A stretch of 64,000 nt of DNA, from assembly GCF_026151205.1 (NCBI RefSeq), contig NC_087084.1:14338235-14402234 (forward strand), written 5' to 3'. Shown in pieces: positions 19,328 to 64,000 of this stretch. The translations under genes were made by a program, and so were the position numbers. The stretch is from Bolinopsis microptera (Eukaryota > Ctenophora > Tentaculata > Lobata > Bolinopsidae). The notes beneath the pieces were generated by a model. It saw only the letters and a list, made by a program, of their open reading frames with translations, did no database searches and was not told where the DNA came from. How positions within the stretch are numbered: the first letter of the stretch is position 1; each line of letters opens with the position of its first letter.

Positions 19328-21077
19328 TTAAACCACCTCGATTGTGACGTCATCAGATACTTCCATACCCATCTGATCGAACTCACATCGGTAGGTACCA
19401 GTGTCTTCTGGTGTGGGGTTCTTGAATACCAGGATATACACTCCTGAAACACAAGGAAATATTTTATGTAGGGTTCCATAAGTATAAATACAGTAGGTTT
19501 GGTAAAATTGCAATGAAACTCGTTATCGGTGAAGCATGAGAATAAATGAAATAGTTTCATCAAGCAATGTTCTTCTAAAATTACTTAACGGCAATGTGAA
19601 TATTAAAAAGGATACAAATCTATGACTGTTGTTTAATCACATATGTTTTCCAATTCATTGATGGAACACATCAAGTTATACTCAAATCTCCAATAATTTG
19701 TCCCAAATTTCACACAATACAATAACTGGCTCTCACCCCTGCCCCTCTCGATGCCTATGGTGTCCGAGTCATCCATCAGCTCTTCACCATCCTCAGTAAC
19801 CTTGTACCAGTTAACATTGTCAGGACTCTTAGGGTCGTCTAATTTTACCTGGATCAAATTTTAGATAAACTATACCAGCATTTAAATCTTAATAGCTTAA
19901 TGGGCTCTTAGGCTCGTCTAATTTTACCTGGATCAATTAATACATAACATATACCAATCCTAAGAATAAGTCCTAAATCCTAATCCAGCTTCACGTCCCC
20001 TACTCATCTCCTTCATCGTACTCTCTAAGTCTAACCTATCTCCTTGGACTTGCCTTTATGCACACATCCAGAATTTTTTATTAGCATTTAAATTATTATA
20101 TTTGATTTCATTTCCACTTCGTGATATTGTAACACAGTTAAATTTTAAGATTTTATTTCCATAATTGTATTCGACTTTTGTTTTATATCTGAACGTATTT
20201 ACGAATTGATGTATAGCCAAAACGAGTTCGTTAGTGTTCTCCTTGGTAATTTCATGCTTAATTCCTGTTTAATTCCTGTTTAATACCAACATTTAGAATT
20301 CTTCTGACATCTATTTTACTCACGTTATCCAAATCAAGGTCGCATTTGATTTTGAGTTCCTTGCCAGCCTTCTGTGGCTTCATAAGAGCTTCCTCGTTTT
20401 CTACCGTCAGTGTAACTGAACCCTCTGAGATAAGTTATAGTGTCAATTCAATGCAAGTAACAGATTTCCGAAAGAATGAACAATTAAATTGTGTGTGTCT
20501 CACTCAAACTGAACGCAAATATCAATGTTGCACTAATTTATGCGCAACCCTTATCCTAACTATATCTTAATTAAGTAATTAACTATATCTTAATTAATTA
20601 TGTAATTGAATAATTAATTATCCAATAAAATTAAACGGAATCCTACCAACGAGTTCAGTTTCCACCTCGACCTCACATTTGGAGACCTCGCCGTCTTGGT
20701 CGATAAAGATAGAACCGACATACACACCAACGTCATCAACATCAAAGTCCCTAATAGGGGGGGGGGGGATGCGAATGTTAATAGCTGTTTCCACCAGTTA
20801 GTGGTGGACGTTAGTTTCCATCAGTGTTCTATCATTGATTATAGTTAATTACATACCCATAATTATTTAATTACATACCCATAATTAATCAGACTTAATG
20901 TCAAAGTATCGTGAAGTTCAATATTGCCTGATCATAAAACTGTTCATTTCAATATTACCTGATCATGAAGCCGTTAAGTTTGTCTTTTCCATCATCCTTT
21001 GGCTTCCAGGGGTCGTTGTTCTTCTCCCACGTGATTGTGGCGTATTTCTTCAACGTCTTCTTCTTCTCCCCCACCAG
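19328..21077 (-). CDS. Exons 37-41: two Ig-like domains and stop
   Basis: Exons are 20959-21077, 20647-20750, 20324-20424, 19737-19848 and 19328-19443. The first domain runs ATITWEKNNDPWKPKDD to DVDDVGVYVGSIFIDQDG then KCEVEVE. The second runs GSVTLTVENEEALMKPQ, LKIKCDLDLDN, NWYKVTEDGEEL and PEDTGTYRCEFDQMG. D.G.Y.C and a preceding W are the I-set or V-set core. The protein ends VTIEVV-stop with no anchor. An acceptor duplicate of exon 40 lies 79 bp upstream (19927). Confidence 0.85.
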
Positions 21078-24000
21078 CTGGAGTTGAAATATTATTGTTA
21101 GCTTAAATTATGTTGGTAAGTTTAGGTTAAGTTTGTAACATATTTCACTGTTCTGTGATAAGGAAAGTAACTGAGCTAGTTCTTTTTGGAGCCAATTCAT
21201 TTAATGACTAATGGGCTGATGAAACATTCATTACAACTTTTAAAATGCTGGTAAAATACTTGCATACAACTTTACCTTGACATTTACGTTCATTCCCTTG
21301 AATCCCTTGACCTTTTCTTTCTTAGGCTTAATATCACAGTCAACAAGTTGTAATGCCATACACGATCCGTCTTGTCCTTTCTCTGTTCCTTCTGTGCACT
21401 CGCAGTGGTAGTTGCCTACTTCATTGAAACAGTCCTACAGGAAATCAAATATTATCACTAAAAAATCTTCAATATAAATATAAATTACTCATTATTCACT
21501 GAACTTTTCAATTTTCATTTTATTTATTTCATTTATTATTAAGAAACTGTTTACACCATTAAAATATTCCAAACTCCTAAAAGAAATCAAGTCATCCTAA
21601 AATGGTGATCAGTACAGATCAAGACAGCTAGAGTTAAAATTTGTTTCTCCAAGCAACTCTATCATCGGCTAATATCTTAAGCTTATTAAGATCATTCAAA
21701 GAGTTAAGTTTTAAACCTCTACGGGTCAAATCATTCACAATAATCTTGAACAAATTCTTACGATGCGCACCGACGCGCCCTTTACAGTTTGTTGTGACAG
21801 CAAACTTTAACGCTAATGCAGCGGGGGAGTCATCAGCACTACGCAAGATATGACCTAGGAGCTTCCACCTTGCTTTAGGGACACGATCTGATAGCTTAAC
21901 TGAGTTACATCTTAGGTATAAGTTTGCATTGGATATTGTTCCATGAGGCCAATAAATGTTCAGTAATGATCTAAGGTGTTTTCTATGGCAAATGTCTAGT
22001 TTTTCTAGTGACTTTGCAGTAGGACACCAACTACTGCAATTGTACATGATGATTGATACAATTTGGGCTTCGTATACTGCTATCTTTCTGGTAACGGAGA
22101 TATTCTGCTGAGACCAGATCTTGGTGAACTTATAGAAGGCATTGTTCCCAGCAATGCATCGAGCAGCTATATCACTTTCACTACACAACAATGACCCAAG
22201 GATCTTACCCTTACGCCAATCTTCATTTCCACGTAACATGGTATCATCACGACCAGGGATTGTTTCCCCAACAGGAGCGAGGAAAACATGGGTAAATTCT
22301 GTTTTCTCTGTGTTAATGAACAGGTTAAACTCCTTGAAGACTTCCTTAGCTATTGGTAGGATAGCTTCTAAGGATTCTTTTTCCACGTTCATGAAGTTAC
22401 AATCATCTGAATACGCTGACTCCAGTGGCATACCTTCTTTTTAAATTTCATTTAATTTATTTTATCACTCTTGTGTATCTTCTTTCCACAATATATTTAA
22501 TTTTAAATACTTTTACCTGGTTTTCTCCACAAGGACTACCCTCACACTCGTCAATATCCACACATTTCCCTTTAATGGGTTACTTGTTACTATGGTTACT
22601 GTTACTTGTTACTATGGTTACTGTTACTTGTTACTATGGTTACTGTTACTTGTTACTATGGTTACTGTTACCTGGTTTTCTCCACAAGGACTATCCTCGC
22701 ACTCGTCGATATCCACACATTTCCCGTCTTCATTTTCATATCCGTCAGTGCACACACAGTCTTTTGTTTTAGGGTCCTTTACAAATGTGTCGAGGCAGTC
22801 ACAGATGAAACTTCCTGTAGTAGATTGGATTTTGTTAATATTATAATTAGTTATGATTAATAATTATATAATTAGTTCGGAGGATGTCTTGGTTTTCATC
22901 AGCAAAAACTGGTAAATCATAAGATTGATGTAACAAAAAAGGTGTTAACAAAAAAGGTGTTATAAAATTATAAACACCGTTATGTGTGTAATAAACATTG
23001 CTTAGAGTTATTGACAGTAACCATAGTAACAAAAACCTTCAACATTAGAACATCTCTCCGTGTCATCACAAGGGGTGTCCAGGCACTCGTTAATATCTTC
23101 ACAGGTCCCGTGAACAAGCTCATATCCTTTGTTGCACTCACATCTAACAAAAGGAATATTTCACGTTAGTTCCAGGTGAGCCAGTATGATTATTAAAAGA
23201 TTAAATTTAAAAAGCATTAAATAATGCAATGTCTTTAAATGTCGTAATTCAATGGTGAAAAGATTTATCTTGTAATCTCACGTTGTGTTATTTCTAAAGT
23301 TTTCACTGCACCACAATGCACCGGAACCTCGCTGTTTACACTAATTCACTAATTAACTAACGTATAAGATCCAAGAGTGTTATACTAATTAACTAATTGA
23401 CTAATTAACTAACGTATAAGATCCAGGAGTGTTATACTAATTAACTAATTAACTAATTAACTAATTAACTAATTAACTAATTAACTAATTAACTAATTAA
23501 CTAATTAACTAATTAACTAATTAACTACTTAACTAATTAACTAATTAACCAATTAACTAATTAACTAATTAACTAATTAACTAATTAACTAATTAACTAA
23601 TTAACTAACGTATAAGATCCAGGAGTGTTATACTAATTAACTAATTAACTAATTAACTAATTAACTAACGTATAAGATCTAGGAGTGTTATACTAATTAA
23701 CTAACGTGTAAGATCCAGGAGTGTTGGTACACTAATTACACTAATTACACTAATTACACTAATTACACTAATAATACTAATTACACTTATAATACTAATT
23801 AACTAATTAACTAACGTGTAAGATCCAGGAGTGTTGGTACACTCTCCATTTCCACAAGGTTCCTCGGGGCACTCGTCCACATCAGAGCAGGTCTCACCAT
23901 CGAACTTGTATCCCTCATCACACAGACACTTGTAGTTGGGACCGTCCTCCTGGCACTCTCCTGAAACGGGGAGTAGGTAATTAGTTGTGGTTAACTATGA

Positions 24001-26309: not shown

Positions 26310-29300
26310 TTAAGAGATAAACATTAAAAATATCTCACATTTAGAGTGTTTAGGCATACAAGTTCCAGCGCTCTCATCGAACTCAAACCCGTCCTCGCAA
26401 TCACAAGTGTAGTCATCAGCCCCAACAGCCTCGCACTCGCCGTGATCTCCGCATCTGATGAGGTGGTGTTGCTATGGTTACATACCATATAAGGTAGTAT
26501 CAGTTTCACAGATAATATATTGGGAATAATAAAGACGAAGTACGGTATTATCCAGATTATTGTGTCTGGTGTTTAGTCGGTGAAGCAACTTCGTTTCTCT
26601 AAACGAATAATCTGTTTAATCTGTGAAAACACATACTTTTACTTACACATATTAATTAATAGTAATACTCGGTCAAATGCGGCTGTAAACACAAGCTCAG
26701 AGCTTTTTCATGACTATAAGATATTACTATAAGACATCATGTATTATAGTACTTTATCAATGTCCGTTAGACTTGTCCGCCAGGTGAAAAATATAGTTAT
26801 CATAATCTAAATTTATGAGCGATTGCTTTGGCAAAAGTTTAACTGATGAAATTGAAGCTAAAAGAAAGGTTTCAAGTTATTCAAACCTGTCGACATCGCA
26901 ACCGGTCTGTTTCTCAGAGCAGAACGGAACCTTAACCTCGGAGTCATCCTCCGCTTCTACCATATCACACACTTCCTCAGCAGCACAGTTCCAACCTTCA
27001 CAGTCCGGACACACCTTCGCTGCGTACGCGTTCCTGGGAGGGAGGGGTTTTACTGGACGTTTTTAGCAAAATTCGTTGCAAGAAACAAAATAGACATGTA
27101 TACGAAAATTTGGAGATTGCAGAGCAAGGGCCAAGGACAGGTTGATCACAGTCACAAATGAATCGAATTGTTCGCTCAAAGGTTCACTGAAAATTGAAAA
27201 AATATGGTATTCACCCTCTTTCCCTTTCCAAATAAAAATGTTTATCACTCACAAGTCATCCATTAGTTTGCAGACGAGGGTTACATCACACCACTTCTGG
27301 TCACTGCAGTTAGGCACAGCACATGCAGCATCGTTAGGAATTACTCCTACACCACTGATTCCTTTGTTTGTGAGTCTGCGAAGATATCAGGTTTATATAA
27401 AGTGCGAAAAGTTCAGGATTTATAATTATATAAAGTTTGAAAAGTTAAGGACTATTAAAAACACCCTGATTTCAGATACTAAGTTTAATATTTGACTGGT
27501 TTTATTCGTTGTATTATTTCATTGAGGTTATAATTCGTCATAGTTATAACTTTATCTCTGTCTTCACCATCTTAATCAGTGATCAGCGTATTAAATTAAT
27601 TAATTAATTAATTAATTAATTAATCAATGTAAAACCAACTTACTGATCCCACCAGAAGGAGTGAGCGTTACAGATGACAGGCTCATAACCAACAGGACAC
27701 TCCAGACTAGGACTGGCTCCCTTACTGTAAAGATGTTTGTATTTCTGGAGTTTGGGTCCGTTACAGGGGTCTCCAATCTGTTCATTCTCTGTGCACACTG
27801 CTTTAGCCTGGTTATGTTTTTAATTGTAAGGAGATGTGTCACAAACTTGAAGGAAATGGAATGAATAAGCACTGTTCACCCATAGCTACACTACTTACAG
27901 TGACACCATAGCAACACTACCTTATATGGTAATGTTACCATAGCAATAATACTTACAATGACTCCAGCACCTCCCCACCCGTTGTAAGCCACACAGATAG
28001 CCCCAGTTTGAGCGTTTACTAATGCTCCATCAGAGTTCACACCAACTTGTCCTGTTGCTACTTCACAGTACGTTACAACCTGATTAGCGGGGTTGCTCTG
28101 TCAATAATGGGGAGTAACTTTAAAAGTTATTTCAGATCGGATTTAAATTAGACTTGGAGTGGTAGACTTGAATTAAAGATCATAGTATGGACTATTTATA
28201 AAGCAATATACATTAGAAAAGGAAACTAAAAGTTGAAACCTTTCCGACAGGACAGGAAGCGGCGGATGTAGCGTCATCAACAGCAGCACTCTTATCACCA
28301 ACAACCTCATCTTCCGAGGCCATGTCCTCAATTACTGGGTCTTTAGGTCCCCATACCTTCAGAGAATGGCTTGTTATAATGAGGAACATGATAACAATCG
28401 TTACACGATGTGTATTTTAGGTCTTGTCCTTTGATCTTGTAGATTTAGAGCATATTAAACACAAAACAGTCTTAAACATTTTTAAAATCCCCAACAAATA
28501 TACCAAAACATTACCTTGACTTCACAGAGGGTGAGGAAAGTTTTGTCGTTAACAATTTTAACAGTCTGTCCCACAGCTCCGTGTCCCTCCTCACACTCCA
28601 CCTCGTACGCGTACTTCATTGGGTTGTACTTGACAGTTCCACAAAGGAAGTCTCCTACGTAAACCTGTCAAAGTTTGCTTTGTTAATTGGTTAATTGGTT
28701 AATTAACTGGGTTTAATTGGTTAATCTCCCACGTCGTTAGAGATTAACGAATGACTAGAGAGGCCTGTGGTATTTCGGGTTGCTGGGTTTAATTGACCAC
28801 TAAAATGCTCATTTGTGATTAAGATGCTTCGATAGTTTCCTCTTTTATATTCCCTGCCATAAAAAACGCCATTTTCTAATTCCTTCTGTGTTTTAGTATA
28901 TTACCTTAACACCATCAATTCGGTCACTACAGCAGTCCATCCTGTTTTTGATCCAGATTTTCTCTACAGCGCAGTTATCCTTCAAATCTACCATCCACCA
29001 TCCAGGTCCTGTAGTGTGTGTACATGTTCCCCTGCGGAGTAATTAATTACAATGAGGCATACAGCATGGTCTATATTCCTAGTTCTTATACCATATCCCA
29101 TACTATAAAATATATCCTTGTGTTTAAAAAGGGAATACGCTACACTCCTCAGTTACTTGGGATAAATTCCTAACAAGGATAGATAAGTCCTATTAAATAA
29201 GCTGTAAATATTTCCCATAGCTCACTTGGAATAAGTGCCGGGCTCTTTACAACTCACTTGGAATAAGTGCCGGACTCTTTACAACTCACTTGGAATAAGT

Positions 29301-32300
29301 GCCGGACTCTTTACAACTCACTTGGAATAAGTGCCGGACTCTTTACAACTCACTTGGAATAAGTGCCGGACTCTTTACAACTCACTTGGAATAAGTGCCG
29401 GACTCTTTACAACTCACTTGGAATAAGTGCCGGACTCTTTACCATCAACAGCCCTGTCAGGAACCCCTCCCCACCCGGTAGATGACTGAGAAGTAGGTTT
29501 CAGGTAGGCCAAGTTCACTAGATTATCCTTTCCCAACTCTGCTGTAGGGTCTGATAATACTTTAACCTGCGAGGGAGGGTAGTTACACGTGGTGTCCGTT
29601 ACATGTTCTGTATTAATTGTAGTGATCACTTGTCTTGATACATGTTTTTATTATCATCAGTTAAAATTAAAAGCTTCAAAGCTAGTTTAATAACTGATGA
29701 GGGGCCATACCTCGCACAGTGTGAGGAACTGTTTAGGAGCAGCTTTAATCCTGATGTTAGTTGCAACCACAGTCTCAACCGTGTCACTTTTACACGCTAC
29801 TTTGTAAACGTCTTGTTTCTCTACATATTTAATAGTTCCACAAAGGAAATCATCTGCGTACACCTGTAAAAGTGAACCATTTGTTAGTGTTGCTATGGTT
29901 ACATTGCCATATAAGGTAGTGTTGCTATGGTTACATTATATGTTAGGCATCTTTTTATATGGAAGCAGTGTGAAAAACTTGGTCTGGTGGGCGAGCAAAC
30001 TCAACATTAATCTGCACCCAGATTTCAGCCGAAATCTTCAATCATGAGGTTATCTTGATGGAGATCTGTTCCGAAATACCGAGTAAATATATTCTCTTCT
30101 CTTCCGATAACGGTATCAATATATAAATTCCTTACCGTGACTCCATCAATCCTGTTTCCACAGCAGTCCTTTCTGTTGTAGATAACCACCTTGGAAACTG
30201 GTACTGGTTCTGGGAATTCCAGGTGCCACCATCCATTGTTAACGTTTCCAGTGTGGGAACAACTTCCTCTGAGGATGAGCAGATTAGTGACAAATTAGTG
30301 ACAAATTAGTGACAAATTAGTGACAAATTAGTGACAAATTAATAACAAAATAGTGACAAATTATTCAAAAATTAGTTACAAATTAATTACAAATTAGTCA
30401 CATAGTTTAATTAATCACAATTCTGTTAATATAACCATTGGAGATAAAGACTGAACATTTAATTTATTCAACCTATTTCATCGTGAATCAAGTTACTTAG
30501 GTAAACTTACTCAGCATATTTAGCTTCAATGTTTCCGTCGATAGCTCTGGAAGCTACACCACCCCAGCCAACTGTAGACTGGGTAGCAGTACCGTCATCA
30601 GCTACATTAATTAGAGCTCCTAGATCATCACTTGGCTTAGCTGGTGGAAGTTAACTTTATATTATGGTAGTGTTACCTTAGTAACATTACCTTATATGGA
30701 AGTGCTATCTTTGTAACATTACCTTATATGGTAGTGTTACTTTAGTAATATTACCTTATATGGAAGTGCTATCTTTGTAACATTACCTTATATGGTAGTG
30801 TTACCTTAGTCACATAACCTTATATGGTAGTGTTACCTTAGTTACATTACCTTAATTGGTAGTGTTACCTTAGTAACATTACCTTATATGGTAGTGTTAC
30901 CTTAGTAATATTACCTTATATGGCAGTGTTACCTTAGTAACATTACCTTATATGGTAGTGTTACCTTAGTAACATTACCTTATATGGTAGTGTTACCTTA
31001 GTAACATTACCTTATATCGTAGTGTTACCTTAGTAACATTACCTTATATGGTAGTGTTACCTTAGTAACATTACCTTATATGGTAGTGTTACCTTAGTAA
31101 CATTACCTTATATGGTAGTGTTACCTTAGTAATATCACCTTATATGGTAGTGTTACCTTAGTAACATTACCTTTAAATATGGTAGTGTTACCTTGGTTAT
31201 AATGTGAGTTATGGGCACTGGCATATACTCTTACCTTCTTAGAACTGAGTAGGTACATAAATCTAGCTTAGGAATTAGGTAGAAATCCGAAATTGACAAC
31301 CGTTCCCAAAACACGATATAAATGAAGACAAGATTTGTTTTAAAGCTGTTTTAAAACTGACAAGATCTGTTTAAAGCTGTTTACTCACCAAGAACTTGGA
31401 CCTCACACAGAGTCAGATACTGTCCGTCCTGGGTGACACTGACCTTGGAACCACTGGCTCCGTTACAGTTAACACGGAACACACTGTTACTGGCTATATA
31501 CTCCACTGCACCGCACAGGGTGTCGTCAACATATACCTGGGGGAACACACTGTTACTGCCTATATACTCCACTGTACCGCACAGGGTGTCGTCAACATAT
31601 ACCTGGGGGAACACACTGTTACTGGCTACATACTCCACTGCACCGCACAGGGTGTCGTCAACATATACCTGGGGGAACACACTGTTACTGGCTACATACT
31701 CCACTGCACCGCACAGGGTGTCGTCAACATATACCTGGGGGAACACACTGTTACTGGCTACATACTCCACTGCACCGCACAGGGTGTCGTCAACATATAC
31801 CTGGGGGAACACACTGTTACTGGCTACATACTCCACTGCACCGCACAGGGTGTCGTCAACATATACCTGGGGGAACACACTGTTACTGGCTATATACTCC
31901 ACTGCACCGCACAGGGTGTCGTCAACATATACCTGGGGGAACACACTGTTACTGGCTACATACTCCACTGCACTGCACAGGGTGTCGTCAACATATACCT
32001 GGGGGAATACACTGTTACTGGCTACATACTCCACTGCACCGCACAGGGTGTCGTCAACATATACCTGGGGGAACACACTGTTACTGGTTATATACTCCAC
32101 TGCACCGCACAGGGTGTCGTCAACATATACCTGGGGGAACACACTGTTACTGGCTATATACTCCACTGCACCGCACAGGGTGTCGTCAACATATACCTGG
32201 GGGAACACACTGTTACTGGCTATATACTCCACTGCACCACACAGAGTGTCGTCAACATATACCTGGGGGGAACACACTGTTACTGGCTATATACTCCACT

Positions 32301-35300
32301 GCACCGCACAGGGTGTCGTCAACATATACCTGGGGGGAACACACTGTTACTGGCTATATACTCCACTGCACCGCACAGGGTGTCGTCAACAAATACCTGG
32401 GGGAACACACTGTTACTGGCTATATACTCCACTGCACCGCACAGGGTGTCGTCAACATATACCTGGGGGAACACACTGTTACTGGCTATATACTCCACTG
32501 CACCGCACAGGGTGTCGTCAACATATACCTGGGGGAACACACTGTTACTGGCTATATACTCCACTGTACCGCACAGGGTGTCGTCAACATATACCTGGGG
32601 GAACACACTATTACTGGTTATATACTCCACTGCACCGCACAGGGTGTCGTCAACATATACCTGGGGGAACACACTGTTACTGGCTATATACTCCACTGCA
32701 CCGCACAGGGTGTCGTCAACATATACCTGGGGGAACACACTGTTACTGGCTACATACTCCACTGCACCGCACAGGGTGTCGTCAACATATACCTGGGGGA
32801 ACACACTGTTACTGGCTACATACTCCACTGCACCGCACAGGGTGTCGTCAACATATACCTGGGGGAACACACTGTTACTGGCTACATACTCCACTGCACC
32901 GCACAGGGTGTCGTCAACATATACCTGGGGGAACACACTGTTACTGGCTACATACTCCACTGCACCGCACAGGGTGTCGTCAACATATACCTGGGGGAAC
33001 ACACTGTTACTGGCTACATACTCCACTGTACCGCACAGGGTGTCGTCAACATATACCTGGGGGAACACACTGTTACTGGCTATATACTCCACTGCACCGC
33101 ACAGGGTGTCGTCAACATATACCTGGGGGAACACACTGTTACTGGCTACATACTCCACTGCACCGCACAGGGTGTCGTCAACATATACCTGGGGGAACAC
33201 ACTGTTACTGGCTATATACTCCACTGCACCGCACAGGGTGTCGTCAACATATACCTGGGGGAACACACTGTTACTGGCTATATACTCCACTGCACCGCAC
33301 AGGGTGTCGTCAACATATACCTGGGGGAACACACTGTTACTGGCTATATACTCCACTGCACCACACAGGGTGTCGTCAACATACACCTGGGGGAACACAC
33401 TGTTACTGGCTACATACTCCACTGCACCGCACAGGGTGTCGTCAACATATACCTGGGGGAACACACTGTTACTGGCTACATACTCCACTGCACCGCACAG
33501 GGTGTCGTCAACATATACCTGGGGGAACACACTGTTACTGGTTATATACTCCACTGCACCGCACAGGGTGTCGTCAACATATACCTGGGGGAACACACTG
33601 TTACTGGTTATATACTCCACTGCACCGCACAGGGTGTCGTCAACATATACCTGGGGGAACACACTGTTACTGGCTATATACTCCACTGCACCGCACAGGG
33701 TGTCGTCAACATATACCTGGGGGAACACACTGTTACTGGCTATATACTCCACTGCACCGCACAGGGTGTCGTCAACATATACCTGGGGGAACACACTGTT
33801 ACTGGCTACATACTCCACTGCACCGCACAGGGTGTCGTCAACATATACCTGGGGGAACACACTGTTACTGGCTATATACTCCACTGCACCACACAGGGTG
33901 TCGTCAACATACACCTGGGGGAACACACTGTTACTGGCTACATACTCCACTGCACCGCACAGGGTGTCGTCAACATATACCTGGGGGAACACACTGTTAC
34001 TGGCTACATACTCCACTGCACCGCACAGGGTGTCGTCAACATATACCTGGGGGAACACACTGTTACTGGCTACATACTCCACTGCACCGCACAGGGTGTC
34101 GTCAACATATACCTGGGGGAACACACTGTTACTGGTTATATACTCCACTGCACCGCACAGGGTGTCGTCAACATATACCTGGGGGAACACACTGTTACTG
34201 GCTACATACTCCACTGCACCGCACAGGGTGTCGTCAACATATACCTGGGGGAACACACTGTTACTGGCTACATACTCCACTGCACCGCACAGGGTGTCGT
34301 CAACATATACCTGGGGGAACACACTGTTACTGGCTATATACTCCACTGCACCGCACAGGGTGTCATCAACATATACCTGGGGGAACACACTGTTACTGGC
34401 TATATACTCCACTGCACCGCACAGGGTGTCATCAACATATACCTGGGGGAACACACTGTTACTGGCTACATACTGCACTGCACCGCACAGGGTGTCGTCA
34501 ACATATACCTGGGGGAACACACTGTTACTGGCTACATACTCCACTGCACCGCACAGGGTGTCGTCAACATATACCTGGGGGAACACACTGTTACTGGTTA
34601 TATACTCCACTGCACCGCACAGGGTGTCGTCAACATATACCTGGGGGAACACACTGTTACTGGCTACATACTCCACTGCACCGCACAGGGTGTCGTCAAC
34701 ATATACCTGGGGGAACACACTGTTACTGGCTACATACTCCACTGCACCGCACAGGGTGTCGTCAACATATACCTGGGGGAACACACTGTTACTGGCTATA
34801 TACTCCACTGCACCGCACAGGGTGTCGTCAATATATACCTGGGGGAACACACTGTTACTGGCTATATACTCCACTGCACCGCACAGGGTGTCGTCAACAT
34901 ATACCTGGGGGAACACACTGTTACTGGCTATATACTCCACTGCACCGCACAGGGTGTCGTCAACATATACCTGGGGGAACACACTGTTACTGGCTATATA
35001 CTCCACTGCACCGCACAGGGTGTCGTCAACATATACCTGGGGGAACACACTGTTACTGGCTACATACTCCACTGCACCGCACAGGGTGTCGTCAACATAT
35101 ACCTGGGGGAACACACTGTTACTGGCTATATACTCCACTGCACCGCACAGGGTGTCGTCAACATATACCTGGGGGAACACACTGTTACTGGCTACATACT
35201 CCACTGCACCGCACAGGGTGTCGTCAACATATACCTGGGGGAACACACTGTTACTGGCTATATACTCCACTGCACCGCACAGGGTGTCGTCAACATATAC

Positions 35301-38300
35301 CTGGGGGAACACACTGTTACTGGCTACATACTCCACTGCACCGCACAGGGTGTCGTCAACATATACCTGGGGGAACACACTGTTACTGGCTACATACTCC
35401 ACTGCACCGCACAGGGTGTCGTCAACATATACCTGGGGGAACACACTGTTACTGGCTACATACTCCACTGCACCGCACAGGGTGTCGTCAACATATACCT
35501 GGGGGAACACACTGTTACTGGCTACATACTCCACTGCACCGCACAGGGTGTCGTCAACATATACCTGGGGGAACACACTGTTACTGGCTACATACTCCAC
35601 TGCACCGCACAGGGTGTCGTCAACATATACCTGGGGGAACACACTGTTACTGGCTATATACTCCACTGCACCGCACAGGGTGTCGTCAACATATACCTGG
35701 GGGAACACACTGTTACTGGCTATATACTCCACTGCACCGCACAGGGTGTCGTCAACATATACCTGGGGGAAGACACTGTTACTGGCTATATACTCCACTG
35801 CACCGCACAGGGTGTCGTCAACATATACCTGGGGGAACACACTGTTACTGGCTATATACTCCACTGCACCGCACAGGGTGTCGTCAACATATACCTGGGG
35901 GAACACACTGTTACTGGCTATATACTCCACTGCACCGCACAGGGTGTCGTCAACATATACCTGGGGGAACACACTGTTACTGGCTATATACTCCACTGCA
36001 CCGCACAGGGTGTCGTCAACATATACCTGGGGGAACACACTGTTACTGGCTATATACTCCACTGTACCGCACAGGGTGTCGTCAACATATACCTGGGGGA
36101 ACACACTGTTACTGGCTATATACTCCACTGCACCGCACAGGGTGTCGTCAACATATACCTGGGGGAACACACTGTTACTGGCTACATACTCCACTGCACC
36201 GCACAGGGTGTCGTCAACATATACCTGGGGGAACACACTGTTACTGGCTATATACTCCACTGCACCGCACAGGGTGTCGTCAACATATACCTGGGGGAAC
36301 ACACTGTTACTGGCTATATACTCCACTGCATCGCACAGGGTGTCGTCAACATATACCTGGGGGAACACACTGTTACTGGCTATATACTCCACTGCACCGC
36401 ACAGGGTGTCGTCAACATATACCTGGGGGAACACACTGTTACTGTCTATATACTCCACTGCACCGCACAGGGTGTCGTCAACATATACCTGGGGGAACAC
36501 ACTGTTACTGGCTACATACTCCACTGCACCGCACAGGGTGTCGTCAACATATACCTGGGGGAACACACTGTTACTAGCTATATACTCCACTGCACCGCAC
36601 AGGGTGTCGTCAACATATACCTGGGGGAACACACTGTTACTGGCTATATACTCCACTGCACCGCACAGGGTGTCGTCAACATATACCTGGGGGAACACAC
36701 TGTTACTGGCTACATACTCCACTGCACCGCACAGGGTGTCGTCAACATATACCTGGGGGAACACACTGTTACTGGCTACATACTCCACTGCACCGCACAG
36801 GGTGTCGTCAACATATACCTGGGGGAACACACTGTTACTGGTTATATACTCCACTGCACCGCACAGGGTGTCGTCAACATATACCTGGGGGAACACACTG
36901 TTACTGGCTACATACTCCACTGCACCGCACAGGGTGTCGTCAACATATACCTGGGGGAACACACTGTTACTGGCTATATACTCCACTGCACCGCACAGGG
37001 TGTCGTCAACATATACCTGGGGGAACACACTGTTACTGGCTACATACTCCACTGCACCGCACAGGGTGTCGTCAACATATACCTGGGGGAACACACTGTT
37101 ACTGGCTACATACTCCACTGCACCGCACAGGGTGTCGTCAACATATACCTGGGGGAACACACTGTTACTGGCTACATACTCCACTGCACCGCACAGGGTG
37201 TCGTCAACATATACCTGGGGGAACACACTGTTACTGGCTATATACTCCACTGCACCGCACAGGGTGTCGTCAACATATACCTGGGGGAACACACTGTTAC
37301 TGGCTACATACTCCACTGCACCGCACAGGGTGTCGTCAACATATACCTGGGGGAACACACTGTTACTGGCTACATACTCCACTGCACCGCACAGGGTGTC
37401 GTCAACATATACCTGGGGGAACACACTGTTACTGGCTACATACTCCACTGCACCGCACAGGGTGTCGTCAACATATACCTGGGGGAACACACTGTTACTG
37501 GCTACATACTCCACTGCACTGCACAGGGTGTCGTCAACATATACCTGGGGGAACACTCTGTTACTGGCTACATACTCCACTGCACCGCACAGGGTGTCGT
37601 CAACATATACCTGGGGGAACACACTGTAACTGGCTATATACTCCACTGCACCGCACAGGGTGTCGACAACATATACCTGGGGGAACACACTGTTACTGGC
37701 TATAAACTCCACTGCACCGCACAGGGTGTCGTCAACATATACCTGGGGGAACACACTGTTACTGGCTATATACTCCACTGCACCGCACAGGGTGTCGTCA
37801 ACATATACCTGGGGGAACACACTGTTACTGGCTATATACTCCACTGCACCGCACAGGGTGTCGTCAACATATACCTGGGGGAACACACTGTTACTGGCTA
37901 TATACTCCACTGCACCGCACAGGGGTTAGGCTTAGCTATCAATTGTATCATGTTACTTTTGAATTTACAAAGGAAACATGTGTAACAGTTACAGCGTGAA
38001 ATCGATTTTTTAACAGGGAAATTAAGTTCTCGATATCCTGATGAAGTGAGTAACCAGATGTGAATTATTAAATAAATCTAACTCAATAACTGCAACATCT
38101 CCCTAACCTTAGCGCCGTTAATTCTGTTCTGGCAACAGTCCAACCTGTTGTAGATAACAACAGCGTCCACATCAAAGTGGTCCAGTAAGTCCACCTTCCA
38201 CTGATTGAAGCCAGCGTTGGCAGAGTGGGTACAGGTTCCCATAGCCCAGATACCACTACTCTTCCTGTCTACCCCTCGTGATGCTACCCCGCCCCACCCG

Positions 38301-41300: not shown

Positions 41301-42971
41301 ACAGCAATAGTAAGACCTCGTTATTAAGCTTTTGTGTATAAACATTGCAGAACAACAAGCTACAGACAGGGGTCACTGGAGAGGTCTAATACACCGGAGA
41401 AAGGAGTTACTATGTGGTGCAGGCCACTCCAACGACTAGGAGGAGACCTTTCCAAGTACAAGTAAGTAAGTATAAACATTGCGTTCTCTGTAACATTGTC
41501 CAGAGTCGACTAACATTGTCCAGAGTCGACTTGGCACTATTTCACTTCCAAAGACAAATAAAAAGATCTGAAGAATATCGTGAATGAGATGATCATCCGC
41601 AACATGAGAAACATAACACATACGGGATCTTATTGTGCTACAGTTGTACATTTATCAAACTATCATTTTTTAAATTCAAAAATCCAAATAAACATTCCAT
41701 CAATGTATTACAGTTAAATTTACAAAAGACCACAATATCTCCTGTGAGGCAAAAAACATGGAAAATGAGAGCTAGAAAAATATTCGTGCGAGACTCAACA
41801 CTACCAGTACCAGACTGTAGCTGGAGTGGTAAACATTATGTAAAACATCATAGTAAACTTTATTTGCACATACAGCGACAGACGAACCCCGAATAACTGG
41901 GTTTTACTTTTAAGGGAGATCAGAGATTTAGGAAAGGACAAAAAACCCCGTAAATGGGTGGTTAGGCGTAACGTTGCCCCTCCCCCCCCCTACACTTACA
42001 GTGGTCCCCCCTCCCCCCCCCCCTACACTTACAGTGGTCCCCCCCACTACACTTACAGTGGTCCCCCCTCCCCCCCCCACTACACTTACAGTGGTCCCCC
42101 CCCCCCCTCCTACACTTACAGTGGTCCCCCCTCCCCCCCCCCTACACTTACAGTGGTCCCCCCTCCCCCCCCCCCTACACTTACAGTGGTCCCCCCCCCA
42201 CTACACTTACAGTGGTCCCCCCTCCCCCCCCCACTACACTTACAGTGGTCCCCCCCCCCCTCCTACACTTACAGTGGTCCCCCCCCCACTACACTTACAG
42301 TGGTCCCCCCTCCCCCCCCCCTACACTTACAGTGGTCCCCCCCCCACTACACTTACAGTGGTCCCCCCCCCCCCACTACACTTACAGTGGTCCCCCCCCA
42401 CTACACTTACAGTGGTCCCCCCCCCCCCCCCCACTACACTTACAGTGGTCCCCCCCCCCCACTACACTTACAGTGGTCCCCCCCCCACTACACTTACAGT
42501 GGTCCCCCCCCCCACTACACTTACAGTGGTCCCCCCCCCCCCCCCCACTACACTTACAGTGGTCCCCCCCCCCCCACTACACTTACAGTGGTCCCCCCCC
42601 CCACTACACTTACAGTGGTCCCCCCCCCCCCCCACTACACTTACAGTGGTCCCCCCCCCCCCCCACTACACTTACAGTGGTCCCCCCCCCCCCCCCCACT
42701 ACACTTACAGTGGTCCCCCCCCCCCCCACTACACTTACAGTGGTCCCCCCCCCCCCCCCACTACACTTACAGTGGTCCCCCCCCCCCCCACTACACTTAC
42801 AGTGGTCCCCCCCCCACTACACTTACAGTGGTCCCCCCCCACTACACTTACAGTGGTCCCCCCCCCCCCCCACTACACTTACAGTGGTCCCCCCCCCCCC
42901 CCCACTACACTTACAGTGGTCCCCCCCCCACTACACTTACAGTGGTCCCCCCCCCCACTACACTTACAGTG

Positions 42972-43003
<32 letters not shown>

Positions 43004-48248: not shown

Positions 48249-51200
48249 CTACAAATCTCGCTTCTTTTCTTTGTTTCTTTGTCTCATCTTGCGGTTTATT
48301 TTCGTTGACATAACCGCTGCTGTACCACCTTTAGACATTTCTACCGTCTTTGGGGTGGCCATTCTTGTTTTTTTCTTATTTCCTCCTTTTACACTCCCGT
48401 CTGAAGTTCCTGGGATTTCTTTGTCTTTTACCTCAACAGATTCCAGCTCGATTCCAGTCTCAGTCTTTTCACGTGCTAAAAGTTTACTCAAGTTCTGGCG
48501 TAATTGTCGATAGACTCTTAAGTTTACCATGATTGTTCCAAGTCTCCGGATAGGAACGCTGATGTAGTGTGTCACAGTGTTATCGTAAATCAGAGGATTT
48601 ATGACAGAGTTTATTGGTAAAATAGTCATTGAGAACAGACTATACCAGGGTGTTGCATCCAGAACTTCAAGGGAATGCAATACACAGATCACTATGAAGG
48701 GCACCCAGCAAAAGAAATCTGTGCTGATAATGATGGCGATTTTTAAGTTCATTTTCCTGTTGCGTTCGGAGATTTGAGGGTTTGCTCCTGACTGTGTCAA
48801 AGCTTTAGATGATTTGTGAGAAATGATGCCAATGATAAAGTACGAGGCTGTGATAAAAAAGAAGCACACAAAGTTCAGGACAAGAATTGCCCATACCAAG
48901 TGTCTCTGTGGATCGTTTTCTTTGACAAAATATTTGAAGAGGCACACTCCATCACTCCCATAGAAGTCTACCTTTTGGATGTTCTTTGTGTAATCTTCAT
49001 ACCCATTATCGTGAGAATACATCTGTGACACCATTTTGTTGATCATACGCCAGCTTAGTGTTGTTTCCTTCATTCTACCGAAGTATCCCTGAAAGACGGC
49101 AAATAGTGTCTGCTTGTTCATTGTTCCAATAAATAGTTTCATCTCTTCTGCATACTTGATCCCATTCACGAAGAAATCCTCAAATTTGTTGATGATTGGG
49201 ATGATGGCGATGCTCATGGACGCCAGAGTCATCACCAACAATCCTCCTGCCACTTGCAGTGATTTTACCAAGGTTACTTCTCCTGGAATTCTCATTGAAT
49301 TGTGTATCCCATAGATCCGGGTCATGCTCAATGCACACATTGCAAATAAAGAGATTTGAGAACCTATGGTACTTATAACACCGATAATTGAACAGTTTAA
49401 ACTTGTAATCCAGTTTATCTGCTGAAGGCAGTAATTTTCTTTGTAGACTATACCATCGTATATTGATATAACGAATAAGTAACCACCAACTAGGAGGTCT
49501 CCTAAAGATATCATCATGATGAGGCACTTGTTGAACAGGGCTACTGTGGTCTTACAGTTCTTCAAAGTTACAGTATTTTTAGTAAGGATGACAAGGTTTG
49601 CAAATATAGCTAGAGATCCGATTGTCCAAGAAAGACTCTTTAGAGACGTCCCCTCTAGAATTTCCCTTGAACATTCTTCATTACATTCGTCTGATAAATC
49701 CAGACAGTCGAATGATCCATCACATTTCTTTGTGACCGGTATGTAGATATCTTTGTCACATATGAAGTGATTAGTACAGCTGTTTTCATCTGACCCGTCT
49801 CCGCAATCATCGGTGAGATCACAAACCTTCGAGTAGTCAATGCAGGTGCTATTATTGTTACAAATAAAATACCTATTCGTATATGTATTGTCGGATGATT
49901 TGGTAAAAAAGGTTAAGTATTCATTGTTAGCTATTGTTCCAATACGGTCATGGTATTGCCCTGGACAGTGTTCATATCTAGGGATATTCTTCAGGGGGCA
50001 AGGAGAACTTGAGCACTTGTCTGTACAACTAGTGTAAACATATTGCTCTCCAAACATGTGGTCACAAGTTTGTTGATCTTTTGGAAGTATCACTGCAGTT
50101 CTACTATCTACTCCGTAAAAATGATGGTTTGGATAAATAAAAGAATTCTTTGAGCAGGTATTTCTAAAGTGTCGAGTAGTTTCCATCCCTTTTAAGCAGT
50201 GAGATAGATGCTTTGTCATGCCCTTGTTGGTTGTAAGAACAGTTGTTGAAATTTTGGGTATATCACGTGACTCCGAGCAAATCTTGTTTTCGTTTCCGCA
50301 CGTTTCAACTCCGTCACAAAGATCACTCAATTCAACATATCCTGGCATGCCCCAACGACAAAGGAATACATTTTTACATGTGTCGTATCTGATAACAAAT
50401 CTTAACGTTTTGACACTCCCACAAGTGGGCCAAATTTCATCTTCGTCAATTCCATTTTGGCAGTCCTCCAGACCATCTTCCAACCAAGCTAACGGTATCG
50501 AGAGTTCCTCTCTATGACCGACCCGTCTTTTACACTTCCTAAGTGTCATGGAGTTGCACATTTGATGAGTTTCGTCGCTTCTGTCTGGACAGTCATCTTT
50601 ACCATCACACATGACATGTTTATGTAGATATTCAGTACACAGCACAGTAGATATTTGCAAACACTGGTTTTCAAGGTTATCATCACATATTCTCATTTCT
50701 ATTGATTCCGTATCATCAGACAACCAATCTGACCCTGACCCGGTGGTAGAAATACAAATGACATATTTAGAAAAAGTGGACATGAACCCGTTAACAAGGC
50801 ATAACCCCCCAACCCTTGCAGGATCGGTACAGTTTGTTTGATGTTCGTAGTGATTGCAGTACTTCATGTTGTCATAGTAAGATTCATATACCACTGCACA
50901 TCTTATAAAGTTGTGTATCGGTACTGTACGTTTAGTACTGTAATGTTCACAAGTGTACTGTGTCTCGTTAGTAACAGTACACTGAGCCTCGTCCTCTCCG
51001 TTAGCACAGGCCCCCAATACAGATCCATCACATATTTGGTTTGGTGGTACGTATACTGGTCTATTTTTAGTTCCACAATACAAACCGTAGCTATATCCGT
51101 TACAACTAGCCTCGTCCTCACAGGATTTGTGCCACAATTTACATTCACCATTACATACAAATTTTGTCTGTACTATGTGTCCACTCGGCATCCTTGTCAA

Positions 51201-51561
51201 TTCTTTTTTGGATTTGTTTCACTGCATCCCCTTTCATCTAAATCTGTATTCAGACAGTCCAACTCACCGTTGCAAGTAAGACCTAAGTTTTCTAATTGAT
51301 ATTCCAGAACGGCAAAGCCATAAAATTGTTCTAGCGCGCACAAATAGGTTCCACAAAGAATGTGGCCGTTTGTTGACGGGACAAATGACCAATAACCACA
51401 ATTTTGATAAAAGTGTGGATCTTTTGAACATATACCTGACCTAAGTCCGTCCGAATTTTCCCAATAGTATTCCTCGCTGTTGTGACATTTGTAGAGCTTA
51501 TAGGGCCAATTCCGACACACCTGTCTTAAGAATCCATTCTCTTCTCTAAAGCTGCATTTAC
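48249..51561 (-). CDS. LDL-receptor-repeat class A GPCR (LGR/GRL101-like), one frameshift
   Basis: One long exon (acceptor TTTCAG|GTAAATGC at 51561) encodes a cysteine-rich ectodomain. LDLa repeats include CDGKDDCPDRSDE, CDLTDDCGDGSDENSC and CDGSFDCLDLSDEC. A seven-helix domain follows from about codon 518 of the 983-codon frame (LAIFANLVIL, GDLLVGGYLFVISIYD, SMTRIYGI in place of DRY, TM7 SVINPLIYD, an NPxxY form). The layout fits relaxin-receptor/GRL101-type receptors. No leucine-rich repeats are seen. The upstream frame (RNWPYKLYKCHN...GCSETNPKK) ends in TGA at a run of six A, and one more base would join the frames. This is an assembly error or a true lesion. Earlier exons with the signal peptide were not found. 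Confidence 0.85.
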
Positions 51562-60010: not shown

Positions 60011-60050
60011 CGTGGGCGGCTGTGACGTCACAAGAACCGTTCCCTCCAGA

Positions 60051-63000
60051 CTATCGGTGAGACCAGTAGTGTTTGGGGGTGGTGATTGAGGCACCCGGGT
60101 TCCTGGCCTGATCCATCCCTCGTTGTATGCTGCTTTGTGGCATCATTGCAGCTTGACCTTGACTCTGAAGATAAAGCTTGTGTTAGTCCTCTGATCTGGA
60201 GTACTTACGACAGGGACACTTTCAAAAAGTTTAACCAATGCTTATATAAAAGTTACTTTTGTAACACTGAGTAAGTGAATATTCATTAGAACACATCTCC
60301 ATGACCATTTGAGCATGGTACAAAGATGGCCATGCTGAAAAACATAGACCTCTGTTACACGTGCAGTAGCGCAATTGCAGTAGTGCACGTGCAGTAGCGC
60401 AATTGCAGTAGTGCACGTGCAGTCGCGGTTCCACATAAAGTTATACCTGTTGCATGTGCTGGATATAGTTAGGAAACTGCATGTAACCCATGTTAAACAC
60501 GTTCTTATCTCCCATCATCTTGGTGTAGTCGTTAGCAGTGGTAGCAGCCGGCAGATGGGATATACCTGGGGTATCAAATTAGAGGGTGTTTAGAGGGGTT
60601 TACACTTTACCTGGGGTATCAAATTAGAGGGGCTTCTAGAGGGGTTTACACTTTACCTGGGGTATCAAATTAGAGGGGCTTCTAGAGGGGTTTACACTTT
60701 ACCTGGGGTATCAAATTAGAGGGGCTTTTAGAGGGGTTTACACTTTACCTGGGGTATCAAATTAGAGGGGCTTCTAGAGGGGTTTACACTTTACCTGGGG
60801 TATCAAATATAGGGGGCTTTTAGAGGGTTTACACTTTACCGGGGGGGTATCAAATTAGAGGGCTTCTAGAGGGGTTTACACTTTACCTGGGGTATCAAAT
60901 TAGAGGGGCTTCTAGAGGGGTTTAGAGATGGATATACAATACATTTAACATGATATTGGCACTTCGAGGCACCCAGTTATTGGATGTCCGATGGCTATAG
61001 CTGTATAGAGTTATGTCCTGTTACTATGAATAACTGATGAATAGATGTCCTGTTATAGTTACTATGAATAACTGCTCAATAGATGTCCTGTTACTAGATG
61101 TCCTGTTACTAGATGTCCTGTTACTAGATGTCCTGATAAAAGTACCCACCGGGATGTTTGGCAGCTGCAGTCCCTCCGTACAGTTCCTTGTAGTCTGACT
61201 CATACTGTCCGAATTGAGAACTGGCTGTCTCGGACGAACCAAATGTGTTCGTTGCGGGGTAACTCGGCCTGAGAGAGATGACCCAATTAGTGAATTAGTA
61301 AATCAATAGAATATTAGATATAATATAGATAAGTAAATTAGTGTATAAATGTATCATCAAAATATGAAAATAATCTCAACGAACACAAGAAAGTTAAAAT
61401 GTTTCTAAAAAACCACTCACACACTGTGAGACTGTTTCTGGGTCTGCGCGTAGTTGAGCTAACCAGGTAACTAAGTAACCAGGTAACTAAGTAACCAGGT
61501 AACTAAGTAACCAGGTAACTAAGTAACCATGTAACTAAGTAACCATGTAACTAAGTAACCAGGTAACTAAGTAACCAGGTAACTAAGTAACCAGGTAACT
61601 AAGTAACCAGGTAACTAAGTAACCAGGTAACTAAGTAACCAGGTAACAAGTAACCAGGTAACCAGGTAACTAAGTAACCAGGTAACTAAGTAACCAGGTA
61701 ACTAAGTAATCAGGTAACTAAGTAACCAGGTAACTAAGTAACCAGGTAACTAAGTAACCAGGTACCTAAGTAACCAGGTAACACACAACAACAAGAAAGT
61801 TTAAATGTACTCACACGCTGTGAGACTGTTTCTGGGTCTGCGCGTAGTTGAGCGCAGCGGGACTGAAGGGGTGCGCGTAGTAGTTAGCAGTGTAGAGGTT
61901 GTTAGGATAAGGGTGTATGGGGTGGGGGTAGTGGTACCCCAGCAGGGGTCCGGGGTAACCACCGCTTAGTCCGGTGGGGGCTGCAGTGGTGGAGGATATT
62001 CCTGATGTTATCCCTGCTCCTACTGTGGGAAGAAGGGGTTACAGCGGGTAATTTAGGTTTATTATTTAAAGGATTGTTTTCCGGAATCCTTGAGAAATTA
62101 ACTGTGAATAGCTTTGAAGAATATTAAGAGAAATATCTTACTTTCATACTGGGTCGAAATTAACAGAATTATCAATAAGTTATAATACAACTCGTTGTCT
62201 CCTGGAGTATATAAGTTTACAAACCATGAGGAGGCTGATGTGAGTTGGAGGATAGTTGTAACTCGCTATTCCTGTGACTGCTGTAGTGTTTCTCCTGACT
62301 CACTCCAGAGCTGAACCCACTGCTCTCAGCTGGGTGCTGTTGCTGAGCTTGTTGCTGCTGCTGAGCCTGTTGCTGAGCTTGTTGCTGAGCCTGTTGCTGC
62401 TGCTGAGCCTGTTGCTGCTGCTGAGCTTGTTGCTGAGCTTGTTGCTGAGCCTGTTGCTGCTGCTGTTGCTGAGCCTGTTGTTGCTGAGCCTGTTGCTGCT
62501 GCTGAGCCTGGAACAATAATTTGGGTTAACTTTTGAATCAGATATTACAATGTGTTTTCTGTAAAGGACAGAGTTCCTAACACACCCTCTCCACAAGGAA
62601 ACACACCTGTCTCTGAGGATGGTGCACGTCGAAGGAGCTGCTGTTGCTACTGCTGTAATATCTCGACATATCGTAACTCATACCACTCGACTGTGTCTGA
62701 ATATTTCAAAGTGATGGTTGGGAACTGAGGCCAGGGAGAGTAAATTTCAAGTCAGCCATACTTTCTTAATTCTAGAACAAGAAAAAGTAGTAAACTGATG
62801 ATTTATCACCGAAAATTTAGTGAACGATTTTAAATCCAAATTCCGAGAACACTAAATAAAGATACATTGGGAAACTGCCCAAAAAGAATACCAACCTGCT
62901 GCTGAGCCTGATGCTGCTGAGCCTGATGGTGAACACTGCTAGCAGCACTATCCCCATAGTACATACTACTACCGCTACTTCGCAGATTACTTGTGGGGTA

Positions 63001-64000
63001 CACGCCTGGTGGCAGGCTCTTCTTCTGAGACATTCCAAAGGAGCTTTGCACGCTCGCTACTGCTGCCTCTTCTTCCGGTAACGAGTGGTTCGTTATCAGG
63101 TTGTTAGCTGAAGTTCGGGTGGTTAATGGTTCGTTAGCTGCACAGTGCACAGGTGGTGGTTTTAGTTTTTTGAAACATTAATGGTTGAAGGAAAGTGAGT
63201 TTATGGGACCATGCTCTCCATCTTCCAAACTAGTGCGCGTCCGATGGCTGCGCCTGTTTAGAGCTGGCGTTTTTCAGAGATGTATCAGTCGTGCCTGCAA
63301 TTCAGAACTGTCAACAATTAGTAAGCATTTATCAGTAAATTCACTCTCACGCCATCCCCGTTAATAACATGTCTTTCTCCTAAATTTAGCTCAAAAGTTG
63401 TAAACCATATAACATTTTCAGTTTGCAACCTCAAGTGTTTCCAGAAGCGAAAACAATGACGTCAACATCAATAGCATCCCGCATCTCGACAGTACGATGA
63501 AGTTCCTGTGTCACTCCTTTGCACCTACCACGTGTAGGACGAAGTGGAGAAGTAGCTAAGAGATGGGCGCTGCTCAATCGGGTAACTGATCGTCTTGTTG
63601 CTATCTCGTGCACTAGGTGTGGTTGAGTAAGTAAGGGAGGCAAACGTGATAACAAATGATTCTTTATCTATCGACCATTCAATGTGCGTACCTAACAATA
63701 TCACTTTTGCAATACTGATATCGACAGACCTACATTAAATTGAAAAGATCCATAAAAGACCTGACCACATTTAAAACTCACCGTTTCTGATGTTGTCAAT
63801 GTTGGGTGGAGGGAGGTTGGGTGGGGGAGCGGGCTGAGTTAGTCCTGCACTCTGCTGTACTAACGAACTGCCGCTCTGAGCCAGGTGCAGGGAAGAGGAC
63901 AACGTTGCCGGCTGGTGCAACGACGCTGATTGGTGCAACGAAGTAGGTTGATGCATCGAGGTAGGTTGATGCATCGAGGTTTGGGACGCTGATACCGTCG
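60051..64000 (-). CDS. Gln/Ser/Pro-rich protein, last eight exons (UBAP2/Lingerer-like?)
   Basis: Exons are 63782-64000 (open at the window edge), 62896-63137, 62607-62696, 62225-62507, 61815-62022, 61150-61268, 60447-60565 and 60051-60164 (TAG). All phases match. The protein is low complexity. It has a repeat of SMHQPTSLHQSASLHQP, PPPNLPPPNIDNIRN, GSSMYYGDSAASSVHHQ, about 60 residues of QAQQQQQ encoded by CAG/CAA, and GLSGGYPGPLLGYHYPHPIH. QFGQYESDYKELYGG, DYTKMMGDKNVFNMGYMQFP and a PKHYWSHR end follow. Composition and Tyr/Gly/Pro motifs recall the C-terminal half of UBAP2/UBAP2L (Lingerer), RNA-granule proteins, but no diagnostic domain is in the window. The N-terminal exons lie beyond position 64000. 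Confidence 0.75.
60566..60930 (-). repeat. About 47-bp acceptor array, eight copies
   Basis: In the transcribed sense units begin GTAAAGTGTAAACCCC and end TTTGATACCCCAG, so each is bounded GT...AG. The last junction, ACCCCAG|GTATATCCC (60565), is the genuine acceptor of the penultimate exon. Junction positions are about 60565, 60610, 60656, 60703, 60750, 60797, 60840 (variant) and 60887. Confidence 0.93.
61022..61138. repeat. (TAGATGTCCTGTTAC)n repeats
   Basis: Roughly 15-bp and 45-bp units (ATGAATAACTG.TGAATAGATG, then TAGATGTCCTGTTAC four times) directly downstream of the donor of exon 61150-61268. Confidence 0.85.
61412..61800 (-). repeat. 16-bp array flanked by a duplicated exon end and donor
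   Basis: About 20 units of ACCAGGTAACTAAGTA (61465-61790) separate the genuine exon end (CAACTACGCGCAGACCCAGA ... GT|GTGAGT at 61815) from a second copy at 61421-61464. That copy has the same 40-odd bases and the same GTGAGT donor. The duplicated exon end encodes LNYAQTQKQSHSV. Confidence 0.9.

Follow-up and report, generated by a model that had tools for sequence, protein, structure and literature searches.

Why do the exon–intron borders of a single ctenophore gene recur, in one case 96 times, in the DNA around them? The question is raised by a 64,000-nucleotide (nt) stretch of the Bolinopsis microptera genome (contig NC_087084.1, positions 14,338,235 to 14,402,234; hereafter referred to as the window) and by gene A, a lectin-like gene model on its minus strand. 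Here we propose, with a probability of roughly 70%, that these borders carry mirage-type minisatellites: a short tandem duplication would arise near an intron end, would then be amplified, and would be tolerated since the splice junction survives. The border-spanning arrays of gene A are of the kind already known as amphioxus mirages.

The model of gene A comes from a spliced alignment of exon peptides of the gene itself, computed by our own program with splice weights trained on 52 kinesin introns. The model comprises 23 exons and 22 introns and reaches 19.7 kb. Pfam domains were found on the minus strand from 45.1 to 22.6 kb (PAN, tectonin, galectin and PF22633, with weak EGF-like matches), and the domain order is PAN, tectonin repeats, galectin, four F5/8C-type (PF22633) modules and weakly EGF-like exons. 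Exon 27807–27799 (9 nt) is not trusted, and the introns adjoining it are uncertain, as is intron 22671–19849, which may hide exons and contains a reverse-transcriptase-like open stretch. Among the 45 borders of the model (including 45111), the eight named ones were given a junction-copy test. According to the spliced alignment, these are the exon starts 38325, 31536 and 19848, the start of the first modelled exon (45111), and the exon ends 43015, 29418, 23816 and 22672. The model and the duplications at its named borders are as follows (a slash within a motif marks the border):

19660–45111, minus strand: gene A, recognized by Pfam, PF22633 matches and spliced alignment; lectin-like; model incomplete at both ends.
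45091–45712, minus strand: 28-bp array, 22 copies, 93% match; the unit has the acceptor ATCTCAG/GT, and the array extends 21 nt into the PAN exon.
41977–43015, minus strand: C/G-rich array of about 33 bp, 34 copies; the unit GGACCACTGTAAGTG has the donor of exon end 43015.
38302–38522, minus strand: duplication with a period of 84/107 bp; acceptor ACCCAG/GAATGCC of exon 38325.
31476–37924, minus strand: 66-bp array, 97.7 copies, 98% match; carries the acceptor of exon 31536.
29221–29442, minus strand: 32-bp array, 6.9 copies, 99%; includes the donor TTCCAA/GTGAGT and reaches 25 nt into the exon end.
23336–23843, minus strand: AT-rich array in which the exon end TGGATCTTACAC/GTTAGT is repeated, with 6 copies including the original.
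22508–22725, minus strand: exon end and donor AACCAG/GTAACAG, a 22-bp array and a far copy.
19826–19936, minus strand: two-copy duplication with the acceptor GATCCAG/GTAAAATTAGACG; copies at 19857–19826 and 19936–19905.

Extra copies of the junction were found at all eight named borders (four donors and four acceptors), as judged by a 24-nt word centred on the border and sought within 7 kb with at most 4 mismatches. Further copies numbered 20, 1, 96 and 1 at the acceptors 45111, 38325, 31536 and 19848, and 32, 5, 5 and 1 at the donors 43015, 29418, 23816 and 22672. At 38325, BLAST finds the junction in three places including the original, versus the one further copy of the word test. The clearest cases are the 66-bp array and two smaller ones, of 32 bp at a donor and 28 bp at an acceptor. 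The 22-bp array at 22672 (22671–22579) begins at intron base 1, and its unit lacks the border; beyond it, a 63-nt stretch (22570–22508, 93.7%) repeats the exon end together with the donor. The 19848 duplication consists of two copies of 32 nt with 96.9% identity. Of the 19 arrays that Tandem Repeats Finder (TRF) counts in gene A, 4 cross a border by at least 5 nt (expected 1.7, P 0.06) and 9 either cross one or lie within 25 nt of it (expected 4.3, P 0.005). Gene A is the discovery set, and its placement counts are therefore biased.

The 66-bp unit is composed of 5 intron bases (CCCAG) and 61 nt of exon start (VYVDDTLCG...). CAG/GT is kept in 94 of the 95 aligned units (AG/GT retention was counted in this array only). 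Units differ from the consensus at 0–2 positions, with the exception of the last one, at the working exon, which has 5 differences. Of the codon differences, 68 are nonsynonymous and 12 synonymous, and 44 of 83 variant cells fall at one site; this variation looks neutral, with no purifying pattern. When the assembly (264,652,675 bases, 232 contigs) was searched with the 66-mer, 45 of the 46 listed matches lay in the array or its exon, and the other was a 48-nt partial match in an F5/8C paralog stretch (C13:7566813). Because the genomic matches are nearly all local, we take the array to have originated on the spot, out of its own exon. A dispersed repeat as the source was rejected on the same 45 of 46 matches, from a search that skips very common words. 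The array could alternatively be coding, its 22-residue repeats being translated as a protein domain of variable length. The 66-nt unit fits this idea, as does the fact that none of the 95 aligned units contains an exon-frame stop. However, two plus-strand frames are also open over most of the array (2170 and 2084 codons), so its openness says little, and in the model the segment or its homologue occurs just once in each of the other three F5/8C modules. With no purifying pattern either, we consider a coding array extremely unlikely. The Pfam matches on the open reading frame of the array are spurious.

Gene A was complemented by 286 introns modelled from Pfam-guided exon matches in 56 gene stretches elsewhere: 23 kinesin stretches (2 duplicates removed), 8 myosin (1 removed), 5 CCT, 8 F5/8C paralog and 12 HECT. 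The duplicates L025, L026 and M6 are excluded from all counts. Stretches were picked regardless of arrays and represent part of the multi-exon matches of the five families; the omissions include one long HECT gene, one CCT, two myosins (C9 and C13) and a portion of another myosin (C6). For F5/8C, 10 of 24 submitted matches were not modelled at their own place, and one model each in F6 and F7 has a zero-length exon, so that two introns are counted as four. Arrays were taken at a TRF score of at least 50 and a period of at least 6, giving 134 in the sampled introns after overlap reduction (128 to 120 before HECT was added). In the placement test, the extra copies of each array were collapsed and one unit was re-placed uniformly over all positions touching the intron; the simulations treat arrays as mutually independent. 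HECT was the last family, added as a check with the test fixed beforehand.

Arrays cluster at intron ends in this sample. Altogether, 53 of the 134 span a border or lie within 25 nt of one (29.7 expected; 0 of 4000 simulations as high), as do 34 of the 72 with a score of at least 80 (17.0 expected; 0 of 4000 simulations). Resampling by gene puts the near-or-spanning ratio at 1.78 (1.40–2.19). The excess is also seen in introns with a collapsed length below 300 nt (28 of 35 versus 17.5, four families) and in young arrays of fewer than 3 copies with at least 93% match (16 of 40 versus 6.9, ratio 2.32). By family, the near-or-spanning counts are 14 of 49 for myosin (9.1 expected), 3 of 4 for CCT (1.6) and 5 of 15 for F5/8C (2.8). 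Border-spanning by at least 5 nt likewise recurs in these independently picked genes, in 10 of 52 arrays of kinesin introns and 3 of 49 of myosin introns. A low-complexity artefact of intron ends was rejected by locally shuffled introns, which gave 7–22 arrays per replicate with 0–3 near ends (10 replicates). The spanned borders in the four families other than HECT are 8 donors and 5 acceptors. In those families, no array lies wholly within the 43,919 exonic nt, versus 119 in their introns. The border falls at uniformly distributed phases of the unit (18 cases at least 3 nt into the exon, 4 of them from the window; Kolmogorov–Smirnov P 0.93), and periods are divisible by 3 in 4 of 14 spanning and 30 of 81 interior arrays. 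The uniform phase, the lack of frame bias and the lack of wholly exonic arrays suggest that breakpoints ignore the junction and that arrays are tolerated as intron. In the kinesins only (110 introns), a test with 24-nt words gave 5 donor and 3 acceptor cases, with interior words duplicated in 10.5% on average; since this test is unable to tell seeding from array growth, seed-placement tests were used instead.

We propose that a mirage-type minisatellite would begin as a short tandem duplication near an intron end. Slippage or end-joining, with microhomology as an occasional guide, would produce this duplication, which may extend past the splice junction. The unit would then be multiplied within the intron by slippage or unequal exchange, and the extra copies would be spliced out along with the intron. 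The mRNA would stay unchanged, since after any tandem duplication one junction (the first donor, or else the last acceptor) still adjoins the exon undamaged; this exon-proximal junction is probably the one used. That births, not survival, are biased toward intron ends we infer, as we do the molecular cause of this bias. A near-identical myosin pair displays the two conditions: across one acceptor, a 72-bp unit is present in 3.1 copies in L034 (M5) and in one copy in L035 (M6). The single-copy state of M6 is flanked by a 10-nt direct repeat, CAACTATTTC, with one repeat in the intron and one in the exon, which, going by its sequence, is a configuration suited to slippage or microhomology-mediated duplication. 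The ancestral state of the pair is presumed, and contraction would give the same picture. Related donor-side arrays in F1 and F5 have 2.9 and 3.9 copies. Duplicate stretches also differ in intron length, at 1062 versus 122 bp for the third kinesin intron of L003/L025 and 812 versus 2743 bp for the third myosin intron of L034/L035; such differences would be useful for dating arrays.

Several results weigh against this proposal. Arrays that span a border by at least 5 nt number 13 of 134, versus 10.9 expected (P 0.28; ratio by gene bootstrap 1.20, 0.51–2.08); at a score of at least 80 they number 12 of 72, versus 7.4 (P 0.049). The spanning excess shrank as families were added. It stood at 13 of 111 versus 8.1 (P 0.048) in kinesins, myosins and CCT by an analytic calculation (12 of 59 versus 5.4, P 0.0036, at a score of at least 80), and at 13 of 128 versus 8.95 (P 0.097) once F5/8C was included (12 of 68 versus 6.0, P 0.0095); simulation over the four families gives 9.0 expected. 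Spanning arrays number 0 of 33 in CCT, F5/8C and HECT together. Kinesins also carry most of the end bias (27 of 52 near or spanning, versus 12.3), and HECT (40 introns, 14 arrays) shows none, with 4 near or spanning versus 4.1 and 0 spanning versus 1.8. When collapsed length was capped at 600, 300 or 180 nt, the expected spanning arrays rose to 12.0, 16.9 and 22.8, versus 13 observed (128 arrays). Nothing special is thus required to account for arrays that cross a border; their clustering near intron ends may call for a particular cause. One case has clear microhomology, and two other two-copy cases, L020 and L004, have about 1 nt by eye.

These results raise the explanation of pure chance, in which minisatellites are common, introns short and some contact with borders inevitable, the locus being a selected extreme. 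The pooled spanning count with its bootstrap ratio, the uniform phase, the 0 of 15 spanning arrays in the F5/8C paralogs and the null HECT set all speak for it. The pooled near-or-spanning excess, present also in the short introns, speaks against it, and we regard chance as unlikely. A property of the gene family was rejected as an explanation, as the eight F5/8C paralog stretches (29 introns) are those in which none of the 15 arrays spans a border.

Where along the intron the arrays sit bears on the origin of the clustering. In the four families, coverage by collapsed seeds is highest between +5 and +10 on the donor side (17 of 246, 6.9%) and around −20 on the acceptor side (15 of 246, 6.1%). 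It is 0–2% at 50–160 nt inside (counts 0–3) and 0–5.3% at 200–400 nt inside, where the interior level is poorly fixed because 38–69 introns contribute counts of 0–2. Bootstrap ratios of border coverage to that at 30–120 nt inside are 2.2 and 2.8, with intervals that extend to zero difference or almost to it. Donor-side array edges are concentrated in the 0–11 nt bin (15 edges, 4.4 per 1000 nt, versus 0.2–1.2 from 12 to 119 nt). The acceptor-side peak is weaker (2.0 per 1000 nt at 0–23 nt, versus 0.4–1.2 further in).

One specific cause of such a bias, which would fall within our preferred explanation and was proposed by the preliminary description, is initiation coupled to transcription or splicing, whereby R-loops, a paused polymerase or the spliceosome would break junctions and repair would yield tandem duplications. 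The coverage peaks beside donors and acceptors, the donor-side edges and the end bias shared by young arrays are consistent with it. However, the interior coverage is poorly fixed, the acceptor-side peak is weaker, large arrays of the window (at 2931, 7114 and 13441) lie outside both gene models, no phase of the border within the unit is favoured, and the HECT set is null. We treat coupled initiation as possible, at well under even odds. The claim that duplication is initiated at borders finds support in a reduced form, through the clustering within 25 nt of all arrays and of young ones; border-spanning is not clearly above chance, and the phase looks random. We hold only as a tentative, still more speculative idea that ctenophore intron ends are hot spots of array birth through a transcription- or splicing-coupled process, with minisatellites growing from splice sites genome-wide, lengthening introns and supplying duplicated signals for intron gain or sliding.

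The same profile could instead reflect edge protection, in which arrays are born uniformly and survive longer near ends since deletions there remove splice sites. For old arrays this predicts the same profile, by reasoning alone, and arrays of fewer than 3 copies at any identity do have a smaller near-or-spanning ratio (23 of 68 versus 14.8, 1.56) than those of 3–10 copies (2.07) or at least 10 copies (1.92). Near-identical two-copy arrays are nonetheless at least as biased (2.32), which makes edge protection decidedly unlikely. Selection for redundant splice sites or splicing enhancers, also put forward earlier, would maintain arrays once formed. Among 47 near-border arrays, GTAAG occurs in the sense strand only in 7, in the antisense strand only in 0 and in both in 1, a pattern expected because these arrays overlap the border. 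Interior arrays show no such sense bias (2 sense only and 3 antisense only, of 81), the periods of spanning arrays are not biased toward the reading frame, and the 66-mer variation looks neutral in both its codon differences and its concentration at one site. Selection is highly unlikely on these grounds, and that suggestion is not upheld.

Arrays of different genes also have sequence in common. The motifs CATAGTAAC, AGTTACCAT and CTAATTAAC recur in the arrays of unrelated genes (the window, L006, L016, L018, L023, L049/L050 and others), and 35 9-mers are common to at least 4 arrays, versus 1.8 in shuffles, some of them from arrays of one gene. The recurring motifs hint at a common source of minisatellite seeds. 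Intron 1960–5212 of kinesin L012 (gene orientation) is mostly taken up by a 26-bp array of 112 copies, with TTGTAGGTAG in the consensus unit; the array runs 3 nt into the following exon.

A second gene model, gene B (60.3–64 kb), has putative borders read by eye and no homology support; its stretch 62833–63177 gave no match in a Pfam search. Two duplications accompany it:

60563–60924, minus strand: 46-bp array ending at the putative acceptor 60565 of an exon without homology support.
61415–61853, minus strand: putative donor 61815 with a copy of the exon end; exon without homology support.

At 61815, a 45-nt copy of the exon end (61459–61415, 97.8%) lies beyond a 16-bp array (61460–61782) whose unit lacks the border. 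The preliminary description named ten borders of the window inside duplications. The eight in gene A do have copies, and their positions agree with the spliced alignment within 1 nt, except for 45111, which had been given as 45090, the low end of the array. The pair in gene B finds no support from homology, and at 60565, described as an acceptor array, the repeat does touch the border, taking in just 3 exonic bases and making this a marginal case. Array units said to contain the border at 22672 and 61815 do not, as the copy of the exon end lies beyond the array in both, and the supposed minisatellite at 19848 is a two-copy duplication.

Gene A itself (19660–45111, minus strand) is an unusual lectin mosaic in one gene model; it supplies four PF22633 matches among 138 listed genome-wide. 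Within its intron 22671–19849, positions 21637–22440 on the minus strand weakly match the reverse-transcriptase family PF00078 (E 2e-4, short of the curated cut-off), and this open stretch is perhaps a retroelement fragment. Elsewhere in the window, a single open frame of 989 amino acids (48252–51218, minus strand) combines low-density lipoprotein (LDL)-receptor class A repeats with a rhodopsin-type seven-transmembrane domain, a layout that we take to resemble that of a relaxin receptor. Rfam gives zero matches in the window at gathering scores.

The new part of these observations, if it holds genome-wide, is the quantified clustering of arrays near intron ends. The border-spanning minisatellites that we found in print as mirages come from lancelets, and here several unrelated ctenophore genes are involved; tandem duplication close to borders may represent a general route of mutation among animals. 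This bears on intron lengthening and on the raw material for intron gain by tandem duplication. No report of border-spanning minisatellites in ctenophores was found by title in the open-licence literature.

The preliminary description knew of no described system of this kind. Two have in fact been described: amphioxus mirages (PMC3087553, PMC3902484) and a potato gene for an RNA-dependent RNA polymerase (RdRp), in which a border-crossing tandem duplication created an intron (PMC4974935). Intron gain by tandem duplication shares with the present arrays a duplication that crosses the boundary and AG/GT units usable as donor and acceptor (PMC4974935, PMC3443670). By contrast, each array here contacts one border of an existing intron, and none of the listed arrays of modelled introns spans both borders of one intron. 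Human segmental duplications likewise have minisatellite units of about 30 bp at the boundary that may create novel introns, but there the repeats lengthen exons and introns of recent primate paralogs, and half of these elongations fall in coding sequence (PMC2812944). Rogers and Bendich (2025) also found repeats at or near intron borders beyond chance; unlike the one-sided tandem arrays here, they are pairs of 4–30 bp at both borders of an intron, read as insertion scars (PMC11782384). The closest counterparts are the amphioxus mirages, minisatellite-like tandem duplications of exon–intron boundaries in Adh3, the globins BflGb6 and BflGb9, TnC and PGBD5, already proposed as a route to new introns (PMC3087553, PMC3902484). 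As here, the unit holds a donor or acceptor with the exon edge, both kinds of border are affected and many copies keep AG/GT; units range from 10–72 bp (Adh3) to about 150–160 bp (globins) (PMC3087553, PMC3902484). The Adh3 mirage is reported to show somatic instability (PMC3087553). Amphioxus mirages are reported to be harmless to regular splicing, and reverse-transcription PCR evidence is reported for them as well (PMC3087553, PMC3902484); the borders here come from spliced alignment. What the ctenophore case adds to the amphioxus one is another phylum, a single gene with eight such borders and a 97-copy array, and a placement test over 286 introns.

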